This document shows positions 2,970 to 22,788 of a stretch of 25,858 nucleotides of DNA, one piece after another (within the stretch, counting starts at the first letter, position 1; each line of letters opens with the position of its first letter). The notes beneath the pieces are model-generated. The model was not told the DNA's origin. It saw only the letters and a program-made list of their open reading frames with translations, and made no database searches. The position numbers and the translations under genes were made by a program. The DNA is from a virus. The stretch is from positions 1-25,858 of IMG/VR virus record IMGVR_UViG_3300047462_000711, one strand, 5' to 3'.

Positions 2970-3368
2970 CTAGTCGGCGGCGTGGGCTCCGGCTAATTCG
3001 CGCTTCGGGGGCTCGGCTCCGGCCAGGGCCAGGGCGCTGCTAAGAAGAGCGATGTTCTTGCTGAAGTGGATCATGTTGTTCTGGCGCTCGCCGGGATTTT
3101 TGTCGTTCCAGAAATTGTGCATGGTGGGCGTGACCGCAGCCAGGAAGCCGATGATTTGCGCCGCGCCAAATTTCGGCTTCACACCCATAGCGAGGCTGGC
3201 GCCGCCGGCGATAAGCACGATTCCTGTAGCGATGACGGCGGCGTCGGGCGCGGGAATGCTTTTGGCTTTGGCGTACCCGGCTAGCTCCTTCTCGTGGATC
3301 AGGTGGTTGATGCCGGCATAGATAAAATAACCGCCAAAGAGCGCGCGTCCGATCTTGTGCAGCTTCAT
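2970..3368 (-). CDS. DoxX-family integral membrane protein
   Basis: A 132-residue protein on the opposite strand to the phage genes. The start ATG at 3368 is preceded by GGAGGAAG six bases upstream, which rules out the longer open frame. The N-terminus KIGRALFGGYFIYAGINHL is the classic first helix of the DoxX/DoxD family. It is followed by helices around AAVIATGIVLIAGGASLAM, AAQIIGFLAAVTPTMHNFW and NIALLSSALALAG, giving four membrane segments. DoxX proteins are linked to redox and thiol stress in some bacteria, although their activity is poorly defined. Its 3' end lies only 10 bases from the end of the convergent upstream gene. It is a host-type gene and probably cargo within the phage region. 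Confidence 0.82.
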   Translation of the reverse strand: MKLHKIGRALFGGYFIYAGINHLIHEKELAGYAKAKSIPAPDAAVIATGIVLIAGGASLAMGVKPKFGAAQIIGFLAAVTPTMHNFWNDKNPGERQNNMIHFSKNIALLSSALALAGAEPPKRELAGAHAAD

Positions 3369-3646
3369 TACTTCCTCCCGAGGCACCAAGCAGCGTGCCG
3401 ATCCGCTTATCGTCAGCCAAAAAAAGACGATTCCAGAAATACTTTGCCGGGACGTGCACGCGCGCGCCATACCGTAAGTTCCGCAGGCGGCGGGTCGGGA
3501 GAAGCCGAGCAAGCTGTACCTCGAAAGTGGGCATTGTAACCGCCCGGCAGATTCAGGCCGCCAGGGGCTTAGTGGGGCACAGGGAACGGCAAAGCGGGCC
3601 AAAACAGGCGCTATTTGATCTAGAATGGGCGCGAGGATCCCCAGCC

Positions 3647-4639
3647 TTGCAAGCCTGGACCGACTGGACACCCAGTTCGCGCACGCACCGCTGGCGTCGC
3701 CGCAAGAAGAGCAATGCGGTGGCGCGGGCCTGGGCGTGGTTTGGCGGGGTGTCCGTTGGAGTGATCGCGACGGGGATTCTGGTGTGGCAGGTCGAGGATC
3801 ATCTGCATCAATCGGTGGCCAACGGGAGTTCGGTCAGCGAGGCGGCCCTCAACATGATTCGCGGCGAGGTGCTGGCGCCCTGGCAGCAGGAAGTGCTGGA
3901 CTCGCTCGACCGGTCGGCGGAACAGGTGGGCGTGAGCGAGCTTACGCAGGCGGAGATCTCGGTGGACCGGGCGGCGTCGCTGCTGGCGTCGGCGAGGTTG
4001 AAGTCGCAGCGCTCGGACCCGGAATTTTTTCAGATGGCGATTACCGGGATGGATCGCGTGTGGAACCAGCGTCCCGACAATGACCGGCTTTTCAGGCATG
4101 TGACGGAGGCTCGAATCGAGCTGGCCACGCTGCGCGCTGCGCAGAATTCCGCCATGCCGGCCGCCAACGGGTCAGCCGTTTCCTCGGACGCCCCGCACGA
4201 CCCGGACATGATTCCCGCGGTGCGGTCCGATGGCGGCGGCGCGGCGGCGCGGGCGAAGGTGAACGGGCGCGTGCCGATCACCGAGACCCGCGAGGTCGCC
4301 GCCAATGCCACCCTTGATCCCGCGCTGCTCGGCGGCAATTATCTGGACGCTACGCGGATGCCCGCTAGCGCGGAGATACTGACGCTGCCGGCGCGTCGTT
4401 CGGCGGACGACACGGTGCGGGTGGAAAACCTGACCCTTGCGGGAGCGTCGCAAACGCTCGATGCCATCCACTGGTCCAATGTGACGTTTATAGGCACGCG
4501 GCTGCGGTACGACAAGGGGCCGCTCGATCTGGAGAATGTTCGCTTCGTAGGATGCACGTTTGAATTGCCTACCGACGTGCGGGGTTCGCGGCTGGCGACG
4601 GCGATTGCGCTGGGGCAGACCTCGTTTACGGCGGAGTAG
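3647..4639 (+). CDS. Membrane-anchored protein of unknown function
   Basis: I do not recognise the family. From the TTG at 3647 the protein is 330 aa. A basic patch (RWRRRKK, residues 15-21) leads into one membrane helix (about 29-48, AWAWFGGVSVGVIATGILVW), typical of a signal anchor with the C-terminus outside the cytoplasm. A helical region follows (about 50-160), then an Ala/Gly/Asp-rich linker. The C-terminal module contains IHWSNVTFIGTRLRY and LENVRFVGCTFELP, which resemble turns of a beta-helix or pentapeptide-like fold. The start is uncertain: the frame stays open to 3395, but that part is arginine-rich and unlikely to be coding. GAGGA at 3633-3637 is a modest ribosome site for 3647. 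It is transcribed divergently from DoxX. Confidence 0.6.
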   Translation: MQAWTDWTPSSRTHRWRRRKKSNAVARAWAWFGGVSVGVIATGILVWQVEDHLHQSVANGSSVSEAALNMIRGEVLAPWQQEVLDSLDRSAEQVGVSELTQAEISVDRAASLLASARLKSQRSDPEFFQMAITGMDRVWNQRPDNDRLFRHVTEARIELATLRAAQNSAMPAANGSAVSSDAPHDPDMIPAVRSDGGGAAARAKVNGRVPITETREVAANATLDPALLGGNYLDATRMPASAEILTLPARRSADDTVRVENLTLAGASQTLDAIHWSNVTFIGTRLRYDKGPLDLENVRFVGCTFELPTDVRGSRLATAIALGQTSFTAE

Positions 4640-7717: not shown

Positions 7718-8596
7718 CTACGCCAGCGAGCGGTCTACCGGATCGCCGGCCCGCGAGCCATACGCGGTGCGCAGCGCCGGCGGCGGCGCTACCAGGCGTA
7801 CGACCTGCTGCAGGCGCTCGGGCTTGAACGGCTTGGCCATGCAGACCACCGCGCCCAGTTCATGGCTGGTGGCGTAGTCGGCAGTCTTGGCCGCGCGAGT
7901 CATCAGGATCACCGGCACCTTCGCCAGGCGCTCGTTCTGCTTGATGATCACGCAAAGGTCCTGGCCGGACATATCCTCGGCTTCCACTTCCGCGATAAAC
8001 ACCGACGGAACGGTGGTGCGCAGAATTTCCAGCGCGGCCTGCGCGGAGGGAACGGCGATCACGGTGTAGCCGTCCTGTTCGAGCATGTTGCGCATGGCTT
8101 CGGCGCTCCGCGGGTCGGGCTCGATCGCGAGCACCACCGACTGCGCGGCGGCGGAGGCTGCGGCGCTCTGGGCGGCAGACGGAGAGCCCTTCGAGGAGGC
8201 CGTTTTCCGCTCGCCCTTGGCGTCCGCTTTCGCGGACACAAACTGCACCGCCACGCCGAATTTCCCCGCAGGTTGCGGAACGGTGCGAACTACCTCGGCC
8301 GGCTGGCCCTGGTTCATCGCGCCGGCCATATTCGAGTAGGGGAAGGTGACTTCCAGGATCTGTCCCTTGAAGTAGCCCGAGAATTTCGACGTGAACAGCA
8401 GGCCGTCGCGGGACACATCCACGCTCATACAGACTTCTTCAAACGGCTCGGGCGCGTTCACCGCGCGGACGTGTACCTGCGCGGAGATCTTGGCGCGCCG
8501 GCGCCGTCGGCGGTCGATGCCGCTTTGCGAAGACTTGTCAGCTTGTGCAGGCGCGTTTGCGTTAGGAGCTGCCGGGATAGTGGTGCTTGTCGCCAT
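7718..8596 (-). CDS. PilZ domain fused to a degenerate response-regulator receiver
   Basis: A 292-aa cytoplasmic protein. After a disordered Ala/Pro start, a PilZ domain (about 28-122) shows the arginine cluster at 29-34 and the D60-V-S-R-D-G65 motif, the two signatures of cyclic di-GMP binding. An Ala/Ser linker leads to a receiver fold (about 153-270). There the normal acidic pair is E159/P160-D161, and the phosphoacceptor position is Glu203 (FIAEVEAEDMSG) instead of Asp. Thr233 and Lys255 are kept. It is therefore probably a pseudo-receiver locked in one state. ATG 8596 has AGGGGA six bases upstream. It is transcribed away from the scaffold gene and would link a host second messenger to the element. 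Domain calls are firm; the role in a phage is inferred. Confidence 0.88.
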   Translation of the reverse strand: MATSTTIPAAPNANAPAQADKSSQSGIDRRRRRRAKISAQVHVRAVNAPEPFEEVCMSVDVSRDGLLFTSKFSGYFKGQILEVTFPYSNMAGAMNQGQPAEVVRTVPQPAGKFGVAVQFVSAKADAKGERKTASSKGSPSAAQSAAASAAAQSVVLAIEPDPRSAEAMRNMLEQDGYTVIAVPSAQAALEILRTTVPSVFIAEVEAEDMSGQDLCVIIKQNERLAKVPVILMTRAAKTADYATSHELGAVVCMAKPFKPERLQQVVRLVAPPPALRTAYGSRAGDPVDRSLA

Positions 8597-8815: not shown

Positions 8816-9928
8816 ATGCCAGGCACAGCAAGTCCGGTGGTCGATGCCACCATCGTGCGGAAGGAAAGCGAAGCGCAACGTGGCGGTGCGCGCACTGCTA
8901 CGCGTAATGCCACCGACGACGAGATCCTTGGATTGGTGACTGAGCCGGGGTTGGACCGCACGGCTGCCGGTGAGCGGGATGCCCAGGCCGAGCGCGATTT
9001 TGAGTCAAGCGATGCGACCGCCGCCGAGCCGGACGGCAGGAATCGGCAAGGTGACGCGGAGGATACCGAGCAGACGGGAGCCCAGGGCGATCCCGAAGCG
9101 CTGCGGGCGGCGTTGGAGGCGAATCCCGAGTTGCGCCAGGCATGGGATGACGCGAAGGAGTATCGCGAGGCGTTCGCGACGCCGCAAGAAGCGCGCAACG
9201 CCACGGCTTTGCTGGCAGACCTGAATCGCATGGACGCGCTGTTCTATTCGCGGCGGCCGGAGGATCACGCGGAGCTGGCGCGCTCGATTGCGGAATTGGA
9301 TCCGGGGGTGTTCGCTTCGCTGGCCCAGGCGATGGCCGCGCAAGCGGGGAAGCAGCGTGCCGCACAGCGCACGCAAACCACCGCCGCGGCTACCGCGGCG
9401 CGAGGTCCGCAGGAAGCAAGCGCAGCAAATGCCGCCGGGTTCGCGTCGCCGGCGCAGGCGGAATTCTTTCAAGCGGCCAACGCCGCGGCGGTGCAGGGAG
9501 TGCTGGACGCGATCGAGAAGCAGGTGGAGCGGCTGCTGCCGGAAGGCGCGTCGAAAAACTCGCGGACCCGTGTGGCCGGGGAAATCTACCGCGAGCTCGA
9601 TGCCACGCTGAGCGCGAACCGGCAACTGGCGCAGCAGGTGCGGGACGCGTTCCGCTCGGGCGCGCTCGACGCAAACCACCAGCGCGCGATCGTCTCGCTG
9701 ATTACCGGGCGGGCGCGGCAGGCGCTGCCGGGCGTGGCCAAGCGCGTGATGAACGAATGGACGTCGACGATTGTAGCCGCCAACCAGGACCGCCTGGCGC
9801 GGCAGCGAGCGGCGGAGCGGCGCGTGGATATCGCGGGATCGAGCGGCGGCGGCGAAGGCCGGCGGTCCATGGGGCCGCGCGATATCGATTATGCGCGCCT
9901 GTCGGACGCCGACATTTTGAATCTGTAG
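8816..9928 (+). CDS. Probable capsid scaffolding protein
   Basis: A 370-aa protein just upstream of the capsid gene region, the usual place for a scaffold that guides prohead assembly and is then lost. It has a strongly acidic, polar N-terminal third (DAEDTEQTGAQGDPEALRAA), then predicted long helices rich in Ala, Gln, Glu and Arg (about 90-150 and 210-330). There is no catalytic motif or cysteine pattern. The end is basic and then acidic (MGPRDIDYARLSDADILNL). The start ATG 8816 has GGGAG at 8804-8808, a good ribosome-site spacing. The family is not recognised by a specific motif, so scaffold is inferred from composition and gene order. It might also carry a decoration or ejection function. 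Confidence 0.65.
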   Translation: MPGTASPVVDATIVRKESEAQRGGARTATRNATDDEILGLVTEPGLDRTAAGERDAQAERDFESSDATAAEPDGRNRQGDAEDTEQTGAQGDPEALRAALEANPELRQAWDDAKEYREAFATPQEARNATALLADLNRMDALFYSRRPEDHAELARSIAELDPGVFASLAQAMAAQAGKQRAAQRTQTTAAATAARGPQEASAANAAGFASPAQAEFFQAANAAAVQGVLDAIEKQVERLLPEGASKNSRTRVAGEIYRELDATLSANRQLAQQVRDAFRSGALDANHQRAIVSLITGRARQALPGVAKRVMNEWTSTIVAANQDRLARQRAAERRVDIAGSSGGGEGRRSMGPRDIDYARLSDADILNL

Positions 9929-12039: not shown

Positions 12040-12069
12040 GCGGCGAGCAGCTGGGAGCGCAAATACAAT

Positions 12070-12138
12070 AAAACAAAAGGGGCGACCGTTATGGTCGCCC
12101 CTGAAATTCGGAACGTGCACTGGACACGCCTGACAAGC
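12070..12138 (-). ncRNA. Predicted ~69-nt antisense RNA against the adjacent tRNA
   Basis: On the minus strand a TTGAAA-16-TATAAT promoter (12172-12145) places the start at G12138. The RNA would end at an intrinsic terminator: the GGGGCGACC stem (12101-12093), loop ATAAC, GGTCGCCCC (12087-12079), then TTTTGTTTT. Its first 20 bases, GCTTGTCAGGCGTGTCCAGT, are complementary to tRNA bases at 12257-12238 (ACTGGACACGTCTGACAAGC), with one G-U pair and no mismatch. The complement covers the 3' side of the tRNA D stem, the 5' anticodon stem and the whole anticodon loop. The short middle (GCACGTTCCGAATTTCA) is unstructured. Transcription and function are inferred from sequence alone. Confidence 0.6.
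12079..12101 (-). terminator. Rho-independent terminator
   Basis: A perfect 9-bp GC-rich stem (GGGGCGACC/GGTCGCCCC) with a 5-base loop. On the minus strand it is followed by TTTTGTTTTATT; on the plus strand it is followed by TGAAATTC, so it is oriented to stop minus-strand transcripts. It may also weakly stop or protect the capsid mRNA 3' end. Confidence 0.8.
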
Positions 12139-12257
12139 AACCTCATTATAGCGCTTCCGGCCACGTTTTCAAGTCGCATTGGGAGCACGAACGGAGAGCG
12201 GGAGACTCGAACTCCGAGGCTGTTCCCAGCCCCCAACGCTTGTCAGACGTGTCCAGT
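12119..12257. repeat. 20-bp inverted repeat linking antisense RNA and tRNA
   Basis: ACTGGACACGCCTGACAAGC at 12119-12138 and its inverted copy at 12238-12257 differ at a single position, with 99 bases between them. The right arm is the D-stem/anticodon part of the tRNA gene. The left arm is the 5' end of the predicted small RNA. Confidence 0.9.
12145..12172 (-). promoter_or_regulatory. Sigma70-type promoter for the small RNA
   Basis: Reading the minus strand: TTGAAA (12172-12167), a 16-base spacer, then TATAAT (12150-12145). This is a near-consensus promoter in otherwise GC-rich DNA. Seven bases past the -10 is G12138, the first base of the tRNA-complementary element. It lies downstream of the tRNA gene on the same strand, so it cannot serve the tRNA itself. 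Confidence 0.7.
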
Positions 12258-12279
12258 ACCCTCACTGGCAGCACTCTCC
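12192..12279 (-). tRNA. Class II serine-like allo-tRNA with 8/4 architecture, anticodon GAC
   Basis: Read on the minus strand, an 88-nt cloverleaf begins GGAGAGTG and ends CGCTCTCC plus discriminator G. These ends pair over 8 bp (one T-G). The T arm is GGAG-TTCGAGT-CTCC, so the T stem has only 4 bp, giving an 8/4 branch where ordinary tRNAs have 7/5. The D arm is CCAGT-GAGGGT-ACTGG (a sixth G-T pair is possible). The anticodon loop is CTGACAA, anticodon GAC, closed by 4 bp plus a C-T mismatch. The long variable arm is GGCTG-GGAA-CAGCC. Long variable arm and G73 are seryl-tRNA synthetase determinants, so it would deliver Ser to Val GUC/GUU codons. tRNAs with 8/4 or 9/3 stems are known, including in Acidobacteria and phages. 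CCA is not encoded. It could be degenerate or purely regulatory. Confidence 0.7.
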
Positions 12280-12294
12280 GAAACACACCTGACC

Positions 12295-12319
12295 GGCGGC
12301 TCTTATGCCAAAGGCCGCC
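12295..12319. promoter_or_regulatory. Hairpin upstream of the tRNA gene
   Basis: GGCGGC (12295-12300) and GCCGCC (12314-12319) are inverted around 13 bases. A second dyad, GGTAC-gttt-GTACC, lies at 12356-12369. On the minus strand, TTGTAG-17-CATAAG overlaps the first hairpin and is the best, though weak, promoter candidate for the tRNA. The 280-392 spacer portion otherwise holds nothing I can support. Confidence 0.3.
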
Positions 12320-12392
12320 AAATCCTACAAGGAAACAAATGTCCGTAGCTGGATAGGTACGTTTGTACCGGGCTTGGCAACGATGCAATCCG

Positions 12393-14177: not shown

Positions 14178-14284
14178 CAACCTGTGAAGCTATTGCGCAA
14201 CCAGCGCGGGATCACTGCAGCTAGCCGCTGGTGGAATACTTTGCCAGTTACGACACATACTCTTCGGCGGCGGAAAACTGGTTT

Positions 14285-14358
14285 GGCGCTAATCCCGCAA
14301 CAATGTTATCCCGAACGCAGTGAGGGATCTGCTTTTGTCTTTCTGCGCGATGAAGAAA
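14285..14358. repeat. 74-bp direct repeat, copy 1
   Basis: It begins GGCGCTAATCCCGCAACAAT and ends GCGCGATGAAGAAA. It differs from copy 2 only by T for C in GTTATCCC. It contains the dispersed core TCCCGAACGCAGTGAGGGAT. Confidence 0.9.
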
Positions 14359-14549
14359 CCTGTTGCACCACGCCGCGCTTTTGAGGGCGTTGGAGTGAAG
14401 CGCCGACCCTCTAAGAATCGGAGTGGGATTCGTGTATGCCGTGTGGTTTGCGCGGCAGATTTTCGAATTTTGGTTCAGAGGCGGACTTCTGGAATCTCAG
14501 GTTGGCCGCGCCAAGACCCGACCCCTACACTGCGAAGGGCCGGGCACTC

Positions 14550-14623
14550 GGCGCTAATCCCGCAACAATGTCATCCCGAACGCAGTGAGGGATCTGCTTT
14601 TGTCTTTCTGCGCGATGAAGAAA
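14550..14623. repeat. 74-bp direct repeat, copy 2
   Basis: Matches copy 1 at 73 of 74 positions, exactly 265 bases downstream. Confidence 0.9.
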
Positions 14624-14655
14624 ACGTGGAAGACTTCAGTGCGATGCGTTGAAGA

Positions 14656-20799: not shown

Positions 20800-22788
20800 T
20801 TACAGGCTGACCACGTTCAGGGTGATCGAGACGCCCCGCGAGGTATTCTGCGAATTGCCGTTAATGACCATGTTCGTCGCGCCGATTGGCGTCTGGCCCG
20901 GCACGGAGACGCTTCTTTTGCAGCCGGCCAGGACGGCCAGGGCAACCGCAAGAATCGCCAGCACCGGAAGCGCGCGCCGCATCCACAGCGGCGAGCGGCG
21001 GCGCCTCATCATCCATGCAAGCGACACGAGAGATGCGGCGCACAACGCCACCAGCAATGCCGCGAAGGCGGCCGGAAACGGCGGGAACCGCCGCGGATCG
21101 CTGGGAAACCTCGGAGCCAGCGTATTGACCGGATTCACCAGGCCGGTGGTCTGAAACGTCACTTGAAACGGCGCGGGCGTGCCGGGCGAAACGGTCACCG
21201 TGGGCGTGGAAAACGTGCAGGTGGTGTTGGTCGGCAGGTTGCTCGGGCAGACCAGCGTCACCACGCCGCTGAACACGTTATCGGGCACCACTTGCAGGCT
21301 CATGGTGATGGCGTTGCCGGCCAGCACGGAGACGGACATGAGCTGGCCGGGCGCGAGCGCGAGTTCGTAATCGTCGCCCGTGCCGCTGAGCACCGTGGAC
21401 GCCGAATCGGAAGGGTTCGCATCCGTCACCGTGAACGTGGCGGAGCGCGCGCCGGTGGCCGTGGGCGTGAATGCCACGCTTAGCGTGCAGCTGGAACTCC
21501 CGGGCAGCGTGGCCGTGCAATTGGTGCTTTCCAAAGTGAAATCGGCGGGCGTGGTGGCCTTGGGGATGGTTAATCCGCTCACGGAAGTGGACGCGGTGGT
21601 GTTGCTCACCGTGAATGTCTGGGTCGCGCTGGTGCCGCCGTTGGCGAGGTTCCCAAACGCGGCGGAGGCCGGCGAGAGCGAGATGCTGCCCTGGGACGTG
21701 CCCACCTGCGCGAAGGCCACGATGCGGTTGAGCCCCTGCTCGGCGGCGTAGAGGTTGCCGCTCGGGTCGAACGCGAGCGCGCCGGGCGCGCTCAGTCCGC
21801 TGGCCATCACGCTGGCAGCCGATGTTTGCGCGTCAATCCTCAGGATCCGCCCGCGATCGGCGTCGGCGATGAACAGATTTCCCGCGAAATCCACCGCGAG
21901 CCCCGCGGGGCAGAGCTGCACTGAGGTGGAACAGGCCGTTGGCCCGGCATGCAGGAAACCGCTTGTGGCAGGCGGCCGCGGCGACACGGCGGAAATCGCG
22001 CGCGTCTGCGTGTTGATCGCGAACACCGCCCCGGCTTTGGGCGAGGCTACATAGACAGTGCTGCCGTCGGGGGTGACCGCGACGCTCGCCGGGGAAGCCA
22101 CCTGCGCGAGCGTTTGCAGTTGCCCGCTGCCCGCGGCGATCAGGTCAACCGCCCCGGCGCCATGGTCGGCGATATAGAGGTTCCCCGCGCGATCGAGCGC
22201 GATTCCCAGCGGCTCCACCAGGTTGATGTTCTGTTGGGCCGCCCAGCGCCCCGCGAGGCTGCGAACGATGCCCGGCTCGCTGCTCAATGAACCGGCAATC
22301 GCGCGGATGGTCGCGTTGCCCGTGTCGGCGACGTAAAGAGTGCCGTCCGGGCCGCCGGCGATGCCGCTGCGTTCAATGAGAGATGCGGCGGCGAGATCGA
22401 ACTGGGCCGCGACGGCCGCGCCGCCATCGCCCAGCGAACCGGTTGCGCCGGTTCCGGCGACGGCCGCGATTCGCACATTGGAGACGGGAACGCCTGCTGC
22501 TGACGGCACGCCCACCGTGAAGATTTGATTGGGCGCGGTGGCGTTAGTGAGGTCGATAGCGCCGCTGCCCGGCACCGCCGCCAGCGCCCGCGGCGCAATC
22601 CCGGCGGCTACGACCGACACTTTGTTGGCGGAAACGATACCCGAAGTTGCTGTCGCGGATGCTCCCGCGCTCGAGCCGGACTGGCTGCTCTGGCGCGCGG
22701 CCGCCGCATCTCCCGAATTTTTACCGATGGCGACCAGCGCCGCACATATGGAAACCGCTACCGCGCAAACAACAGCCAGTCGCCGCAC
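20800..22788 (-). CDS. Exported NHL-repeat/choice-of-anchor protein
   Basis: A 662-aa protein facing the phage genes. It begins with GTG 22788, after GGGAGAG. An N-terminal signal (LAVVCAVAVSICAALVAIG) is followed by an Ala/Ser-rich stretch. Then come NHL-type beta-propeller blades: PDGTLYVADTGNATIRAIAG, EPLGIALDRAGNLYIADHGA, PAGLAVDFAGNLFIADADRG and PGALAFDPSGNLYAAEQGLN (about 140-370). Ig-like 'choice-of-anchor D' strands follow (SLSPASAAFGNLANGGTSAT and on, about 375-480), then a second Ig-like domain and two C-terminal membrane segments with an internal LAVLAGC. It is of a type very common on acidobacterial cell surfaces. A TATGAT -10 lies at 22876-22871 on the minus strand. It probably is host cargo, not a virion part. 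Confidence 0.85.
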   Translation of the reverse strand: MRRLAVVCAVAVSICAALVAIGKNSGDAAAARQSSQSGSSAGASATATSGIVSANKVSVVAAGIAPRALAAVPGSGAIDLTNATAPNQIFTVGVPSAAGVPVSNVRIAAVAGTGATGSLGDGGAAVAAQFDLAAASLIERSGIAGGPDGTLYVADTGNATIRAIAGSLSSEPGIVRSLAGRWAAQQNINLVEPLGIALDRAGNLYIADHGAGAVDLIAAGSGQLQTLAQVASPASVAVTPDGSTVYVASPKAGAVFAINTQTRAISAVSPRPPATSGFLHAGPTACSTSVQLCPAGLAVDFAGNLFIADADRGRILRIDAQTSAASVMASGLSAPGALAFDPSGNLYAAEQGLNRIVAFAQVGTSQGSISLSPASAAFGNLANGGTSATQTFTVSNTTASTSVSGLTIPKATTPADFTLESTNCTATLPGSSSCTLSVAFTPTATGARSATFTVTDANPSDSASTVLSGTGDDYELALAPGQLMSVSVLAGNAITMSLQVVPDNVFSGVVTLVCPSNLPTNTTCTFSTPTVTVSPGTPAPFQVTFQTTGLVNPVNTLAPRFPSDPRRFPPFPAAFAALLVALCAASLVSLAWMMRRRRSPLWMRRALPVLAILAVALAVLAGCKRSVSVPGQTPIGATNMVINGNSQNTSRGVSITLNVVSL

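Follow-up and report, generated by a model that had tools for sequence, protein, structure and literature searches.

The DNA stretch analysed here (the window; 25,858 nucleotides of an IMG/VR virus record) carries at 12192-12279, on the (-) strand, an 8/4, class II RNA gene resembling allo-tRNA and tRNA-Sec, with the anticodon GAC, the discriminator G73 and no encoded CCA. ARAGORN called this gene as the sole tRNA of the window, a tRNA-Val(GAC), with exactly the ends given in the original prediction. The predicted fold was a cloverleaf (-40.3 kcal/mol, z = -2.1) as described there, composed of an 8-bp acceptor stem (GGAGAGTG/CGCTCTCC), a D arm of 6 bp with a 4-nt loop as in tRNA-Sec, an anticodon stem of 4 bp plus a C.U mismatch with the loop CTGACAA, a 5-bp variable arm with a GGAA loop and a 4-bp T stem. 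C-1 is able to pair with G73. The acceptor stem, T stem, variable arm, G73 and anticodon loop listed in the original prediction were all recovered, as was the orientation opposite to that of the late genes. The 8/4 tRNA gene at 12279-12192 (-) is real, and a pseudogene reading was rejected. No Rfam family reached its gathering cut-off in the window module. The tRNA-Sec model (RF01852) gave 33.8 bits (cut-off 47), and tRNA-Sec identity was rejected on this score and on the anticodon, which is GAC rather than UCA. A weak putative promoter lies upstream at 12302-12330 on the (-) strand (-35 TTGTAG at 12330-12325, 17 nt, -10 CATAAG at 12307-12302); taken alone it was at chance level in the window (p about 0.43) and in most of the relatives described below, in most of which the -10-like element stops about 20-22 nt upstream of the tRNA. 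Further upstream, at 12356-12369, the palindrome GGTACGTTTGTACC is also kept in the related contigs L002 and L011; it is a possible operator.

A repeat finder revealed a 20-nt inverted repeat, 12119-12138/12238-12257, which the original prediction did not contain. As the arm at 12238-12257 consists of the 3' strand of the tRNA D stem and the anticodon stem-loop, a minus-strand transcript bears its complement downstream of the tRNA. This complement, the guide GCTTGTCAGGCGTGTCCAGT (12119-12138, (-)), comprises 20 nt complementary to tRNA positions 12257-12238 with one G.U pair. It is preceded by a sigma-70-like promoter at 12145-12172 on the (-) strand (TTGAAA at 12172-12167, 16 nt, TATAAT at 12150-12145) and followed by a strong intrinsic terminator at 12069-12102 (-) (AGGGGCGACC-ATAAC-GGTCGCCCCT-TTTGTTTTA), and therefore a separate RNA of about 70 nt (12069-12138, (-)), starting with the antisense stretch, is predicted. 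This RNA contains a 7-bp hairpin with a CCAGU loop (12112-12130, (-)). In the predicted fold the first seven nucleotides of the guide remain unpaired; they are complementary to the anticodon GAC, A37, A38 and GC. Sub-threshold Rfam matches (MicX, suhB, DicF and others) overlapped the terminator or the hairpins and were dismissed as chance.

Seventeen related viral contigs were reached via the capsid protein, and further copies of the module formed by both genes via DNA patterns of the tRNA. Among the 17 capsid-related contigs, L002 and L011 carry the module at the same place as the window, and scanning the whole contigs with a covariance model found none in the remaining 15. Paired modules are available from twelve sources: the window, L002, L011, L023, L031-L037 and L039. 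Across these 12 homologues, 98.5% of the cloverleaf positions are paired and 8 pairs are changed on both sides, with double changes in both the acceptor and the T helices, and sliding controls came nowhere near the observed pairing. Covariation in relatives, which the original prediction had named as a check of its tRNA, was thereby found. Acceptor pair 8 forms in 12/12 members next to a T stem of 4 bp, which indicates that the 8/4 acceptor branch is real; L033 is the only member that can also be read as 7/5. The D stem has 6 bp with a 4-nt loop in all twelve, the variable arm has 5-6 bp, and G73 is present in 11/12, with A73 in L034. The covariance model scored the homologues at 93-111 bits and ordinary tRNA-Ser at no more than 45, and the tRNA-Sec model gave the tRNA homologues 34-46 bits. 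The assignment to the 8/4 allo-tRNA type with serine/Sec-type features, made initially from one sequence, is borne out by these data, and ARAGORN called just 4 of the 12 module tRNAs. All anticodons are non-serine: GAC (6), GAG (4), GCG (1) and CTC (1). Five of the twelve tRNAs have C33 in place of the decoding-critical U33, so at least these are expected to decode poorly.

In the antisense gene a TTGaca-16/17-TAtaaT promoter precedes the guide in 12/12 modules, stopping 6 nt (7 in L023) short of it, and its score at this fixed position was reached in shuffled sequences at a frequency <0.01 in 11/12. The terminator closes the antisense RNA after 59-70 nt in all twelve members, the CCAGU-type hairpin is conserved with 4 pairs changed on both sides, and in most members the predicted fold leaves about 7 nt at the 5' end single-stranded, opposite the anticodon loop. 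The antisense promoter is better than that of the tRNA and looks strong and constitutive.

The two RNAs of each module match each other. Over the 20 pairs of the tRNA:antisense duplex, 98.7% of positions pair in the 12 modules, and 9 pairs have both sides changed (0/500 shuffles), including all three anticodon positions. Since these three positions are unpaired in the cloverleaf, a constraint from the cloverleaf does not explain their double changes. The duplex energy averaged -43.7 kcal/mol for own partners and -30.8 for mismatched ones, with none of 20,000 permutations as good, and net binding after unfolding of both RNAs was -19.7 for own versus -7.8 for crossed partners; both energy matrices contain cross-reactivity inside sub-groups. 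Elsewhere in the window and in the related contigs the guides found at most 18/20 matches, compared to 19-20/20 in their own tRNA. A further matched element, the 11-nt trailer GCTCCCAATGC (12176-12186, (-)), lies just 3' of the tRNA and is complementary to the 3' strand of the anticodon stem and the variable-arm base of its own tRNA (GCGTTGGGGGC), with which it covaries (0/20,000 permutations). The tRNA leader (12280-12295 in the window, and its equivalents) is similar to the guide and able to pair with the anticodon stem; its complementarity to the anticodon arm, reached by 473/20,000 permutations, is only suggestive. A read-through transcript folds as a very stable rod (z = -6.3). These sequence comparisons make a matched architecture of two RNA genes almost certain, and the covariation indicates that the cloverleaf and the tRNA:antisense duplex are two structures under selection.

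Terminase, portal, capsid and other shared genes place all 12 modules in one phage family. There the module occupies five intergenic sites, namely capsid/ORF12363, terminase/portal, ORF12363/ORF20063, zinc-ribbon ORF/ORF23471 and ORF22964/ORF23471, and at every site its strand is opposite to the late genes. We regard the module as an independent cassette with changing insertion sites. At the L023 copy (about 9180-9560) both flanks of the module carry the beginning of the adjacent gene (ATGAGTGTTGCCGG...GATATG), as if the cassette had entered with partial duplication of the gene start. The source viruses are uncultured and of soil type; Acidobacteria as their host, taken by analogy from the allo-tRNA literature, is only a guess. 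A search of 15 related contigs, each of them a fragment, yielded no integrase, which gives no support for a temperate lifestyle requiring addiction.

A search for the antisense unit alone revealed five loci with guide and terminator and without the tRNA: L034 (4270-4420, (-)), there in addition to a complete GAC module, L086 (10838-10861, (-)), L087 (516-539, (+)), L088 (5124-5147, (-)) and L089 (3065-3088, (-)). Scanning L086-L089 over their whole length with the covariance model detected no tRNA. Conversely, five pattern scans yielded no tRNA without an antisense RNA. The guide of L086 fits a GCC anticodon and predicts a partner with this anticodon, which is absent among the tRNAs found. Four orphans are of the CTC type and sit at the site of the complete CTC module of L039. 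Among the three distinct CTC orphan copies guide and hairpin agree at every position (30/30), compared to 80-86% identity in linker and terminator and 88-92% in the 5' flank. CTC-type orphans have poor -10 boxes (CAACCT/CAAGCT), which leaves their strength uncertain; they might be in decay even though guide and terminator persist. Retention of the antidote after loss of the poison is a prediction of a toxin-antitoxin or immunity model, and the putative antitoxin was indeed found alone and the putative toxin was not. As four of the five orphans share one site and two of the orphan contigs are near-identical, there were perhaps only two independent losses, and this pattern of few events carries modest weight.

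Several known systems resemble parts of the module. The 8/4 and 9/3 allo-tRNAs (Mukai et al. 2017, as presented in excerpts of PMC7609411 and PMC7590224) have in common with the window tRNA the 12-bp branch, here as 8/4, the long D stem, the long variable arm, G73, non-serine anticodons and an origin in soil-type metagenomes; in the same excerpts GCG is among the commonest allo-tRNA anticodons reported, and they mention no antisense partner. By its sequence the module tRNA has the structural features of an 8/4 allo-tRNA. It differs from the allo-tRNAs of those excerpts in being part of a phage cassette, in having a dedicated, covarying antisense RNA and in the C33 of 5/12 members. With tRNA-Sec (RF01852) it shares the 8-bp acceptor, the 6-bp D stem with 4-nt loop, the long variable arm and G73, and it differs in its score below the cut-off and in lacking a UCA anticodon. 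As in the type VIII toxin-antitoxin systems SdsR/RyeA and CreTA both partners are RNA, and two linked, complementary RNA genes were found in the module; CreTA, in addition, also harms via tRNA supply and translation. Unlike RyeA and SdsR, which overlap on opposite strands, the module RNAs are arranged in tandem and separately promoted, and whereas CreA acts via Cascade at a promoter (PMC12737573), the module antisense RNA is predicted to bind the tRNA directly. A further difference from type VIII is that the presumed toxin of the phage module is a tRNA. The hok/Sok system and plasmid antisense RNAs (e.g. RNAII of pMV158) resemble the module in the short RNA with a terminator and a 5' tail, predicted to be single-stranded in most module members, and in the matching of sense and antisense (PMC6562991, PMC4485353); such a tail combined with a hairpin is the usual layout of antisense RNAs that approach a target loop by a free 5' end (PMC4485353, PMC6562991). 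Their landing site is a YUNR U-turn loop. In the window tRNA CUGA of the anticodon loop is such a YUNR U-turn, which the C33 members lack. In contrast to hok/Sok, the target here is a tRNA-like RNA rather than an mRNA and the antisense gene lies in tandem, not on the opposite strand. By analogy, the module may be compared with RNA-RNA toxin-antitoxin systems or hok/Sok-type control, and we do not claim a toxin-antitoxin type for it.

Given the antisense partner, the tRNA is likely not just an additional tRNA but an RNA under control and probably harmful. From the sequences we infer transcription, charging, toxicity and duplex formation in cells as well as the biological role, and we slightly favour an RNA-only toxin-antitoxin or inter-phage immunity module in which a mis-serylating allo-tRNA would be the poison and the antisense RNA the antidote. 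The more specific proposal, by which the tRNA is a poison, mis-serylating allo-tRNAs have diversified in their anticodons together with matched antidotes and stand-alone antidotes of rival phages act as immunity genes, falls somewhat short of an even chance. The first RNA is the 8/4 allo-tRNA, which combines serine/Sec-type features with a non-serine anticodon; serine identity depends mainly on the variable arm and G73 and not on the anticodon (PMC9976931). Serylated, it would put Ser at GUC/GUU, CGC/CGU, CUC/CUU or GAG codons. Codon use in the window per 1000 is 34.9 for CGC, 35.5 for GAG, 16.1 for CTC and 11.8 for GTC, so that several targeted codons are common in this genome and mis-serylation would hit common codons. 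Members with C33 would poison translation in some other way. The second RNA, predicted to span 59-70 nt from its own promoter just downstream, matches the anticodon loop and arm with its extreme 5' end: its free 5' tail would first pair with the anticodon loop, and the duplex would then run through the anticodon stem and the D-stem 3' strand, inactivating the tRNA. With a stable tRNA and a presumably shorter-lived antisense RNA, carriers would be protected by the antisense RNA, and free-standing antisense copies might shield phages or hosts devoid of it. In E. coli, high suppressor activity is described for many allo-tRNAs (PMC7590224), and one allo-tRNA(UAU) group is reported to be inactive in translation (PMC7609411). 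The latter result, the C33 in 5/12 tRNAs, the weak tRNA promoter and the failure to find an integrase in the 15 contig fragments count against a toxin-antitoxin function.

Other readings explain parts of these data. The module could be a useful missense suppressor under regulation, whose timed use, for instance late in infection, would alter host or phage proteins and which the antisense RNA otherwise keeps off. The anatomy is equally compatible with this reading, which would suit a strong, constitutive-looking antisense promoter combined with a weak tRNA promoter and the efficient suppression by allo-tRNAs possible in E. coli (PMC7590224). We nevertheless regard it as unlikely, as the tRNA-less antisense orphans and the changing anticodons better fit conflict or immunity, and the C33 members and the absence from 15/17 capsid-related contigs also argue against it. 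A plain missense suppressor is disfavoured by C33 in 5/12 together with the dedicated antisense RNA on the anticodon arm. An ordinary additional phage tRNA-Val without special control, which is what the ARAGORN assignment with anticodon GAC amounts to, is exceedingly improbable in view of the 8/4 acceptor branch, the long variable arm, G73, the varying anticodon of the homologues and the matched antisense RNA.

The inverted repeat has also been considered with the antisense RNA in another role or never made. The antisense RNA could be the effector, directed at another RNA (host or phage mRNA, or host tRNA), with the tRNA-like RNA as sponge or decoy; a 5' seed and a terminator are typical of many bacterial sRNAs, and at five loci the antisense RNA indeed stands by itself. 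A conserved third target would, however, forbid the free change of the guide together with the tRNA, and comparable complementarity was found nowhere else in the window or related contigs, which renders this reading quite improbable. Improbable, too, is a mobile or incompatibility element that governs its own spread by its RNAs, much as plasmids and transposons do by antisense control: it would account for five insertion sites within one phage family, for the partial duplication at the L023 copy and for the transposon-related ORF to which some allo-tRNAs are reported to be linked (PMC7609411), but the surroundings of the module showed neither a protein gene nor a terminal repeat or target-site pattern, and L023 alone has the flanking duplication. 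If no antisense RNA were made, the repeat might be a processing or termination hairpin or a product of template switching (quasi-palindrome correction), as the stable rod of the read-through transcript would allow. The promoter exactly before the guide in 12/12 modules, repeat arms about 100 nt apart and orphan guides that are constant even where a correcting tRNA copy is missing make this very improbable. A pure cruciform was rejected.

Allo-tRNAs have to our knowledge been described since 2017 with their biological role not settled; allo-tRNA and antisense RNA are each known kinds of RNA, and from a limited open-access literature search we know of no system joining both, nor did that search yield a description of such a pair. 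GenBank phages and plasmids gave only short, non-significant matches to the module, one scan of bacterial genomes, with a pattern that caught ordinary tRNA-Ser genes, picked up these and nothing else, and the covariance model gave no hit in 82 genomes from one other phylum, a result that says little. Should the tRNA prove toxic, we would know of no earlier tRNA toxin that has an antisense antitoxin; the module would then be an RNA control device with matched parts and offer phages a new route to self-protection or competition. An antisense partner that follows the anticodon through evolution links this group of allo-tRNAs to RNA-RNA conflict and opens the question of their role to direct tests.

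Some other features of these phages were observed. Host-like cassettes on the opposite (-) strand lie between phage genes of the window at 2970-3671, 7718-8596 and 20800-22788 and encode DoxX-like, PilZ/response-regulator and NHL-repeat/Ig-like proteins. Repeated intergenic sequences at 2028-2586 and 14184-14652, with the frames ...ISRLAG... and ...CYPERSEGSAFVFLRDEE..., are probably REP-like. The contig that carries the L031 module also contains, at L082:16003-17244 (-), a gene for a rolling-circle (Rep_1) replication protein that also weakly matches an IS91-type zinc finger, a possible phage-plasmid trait.
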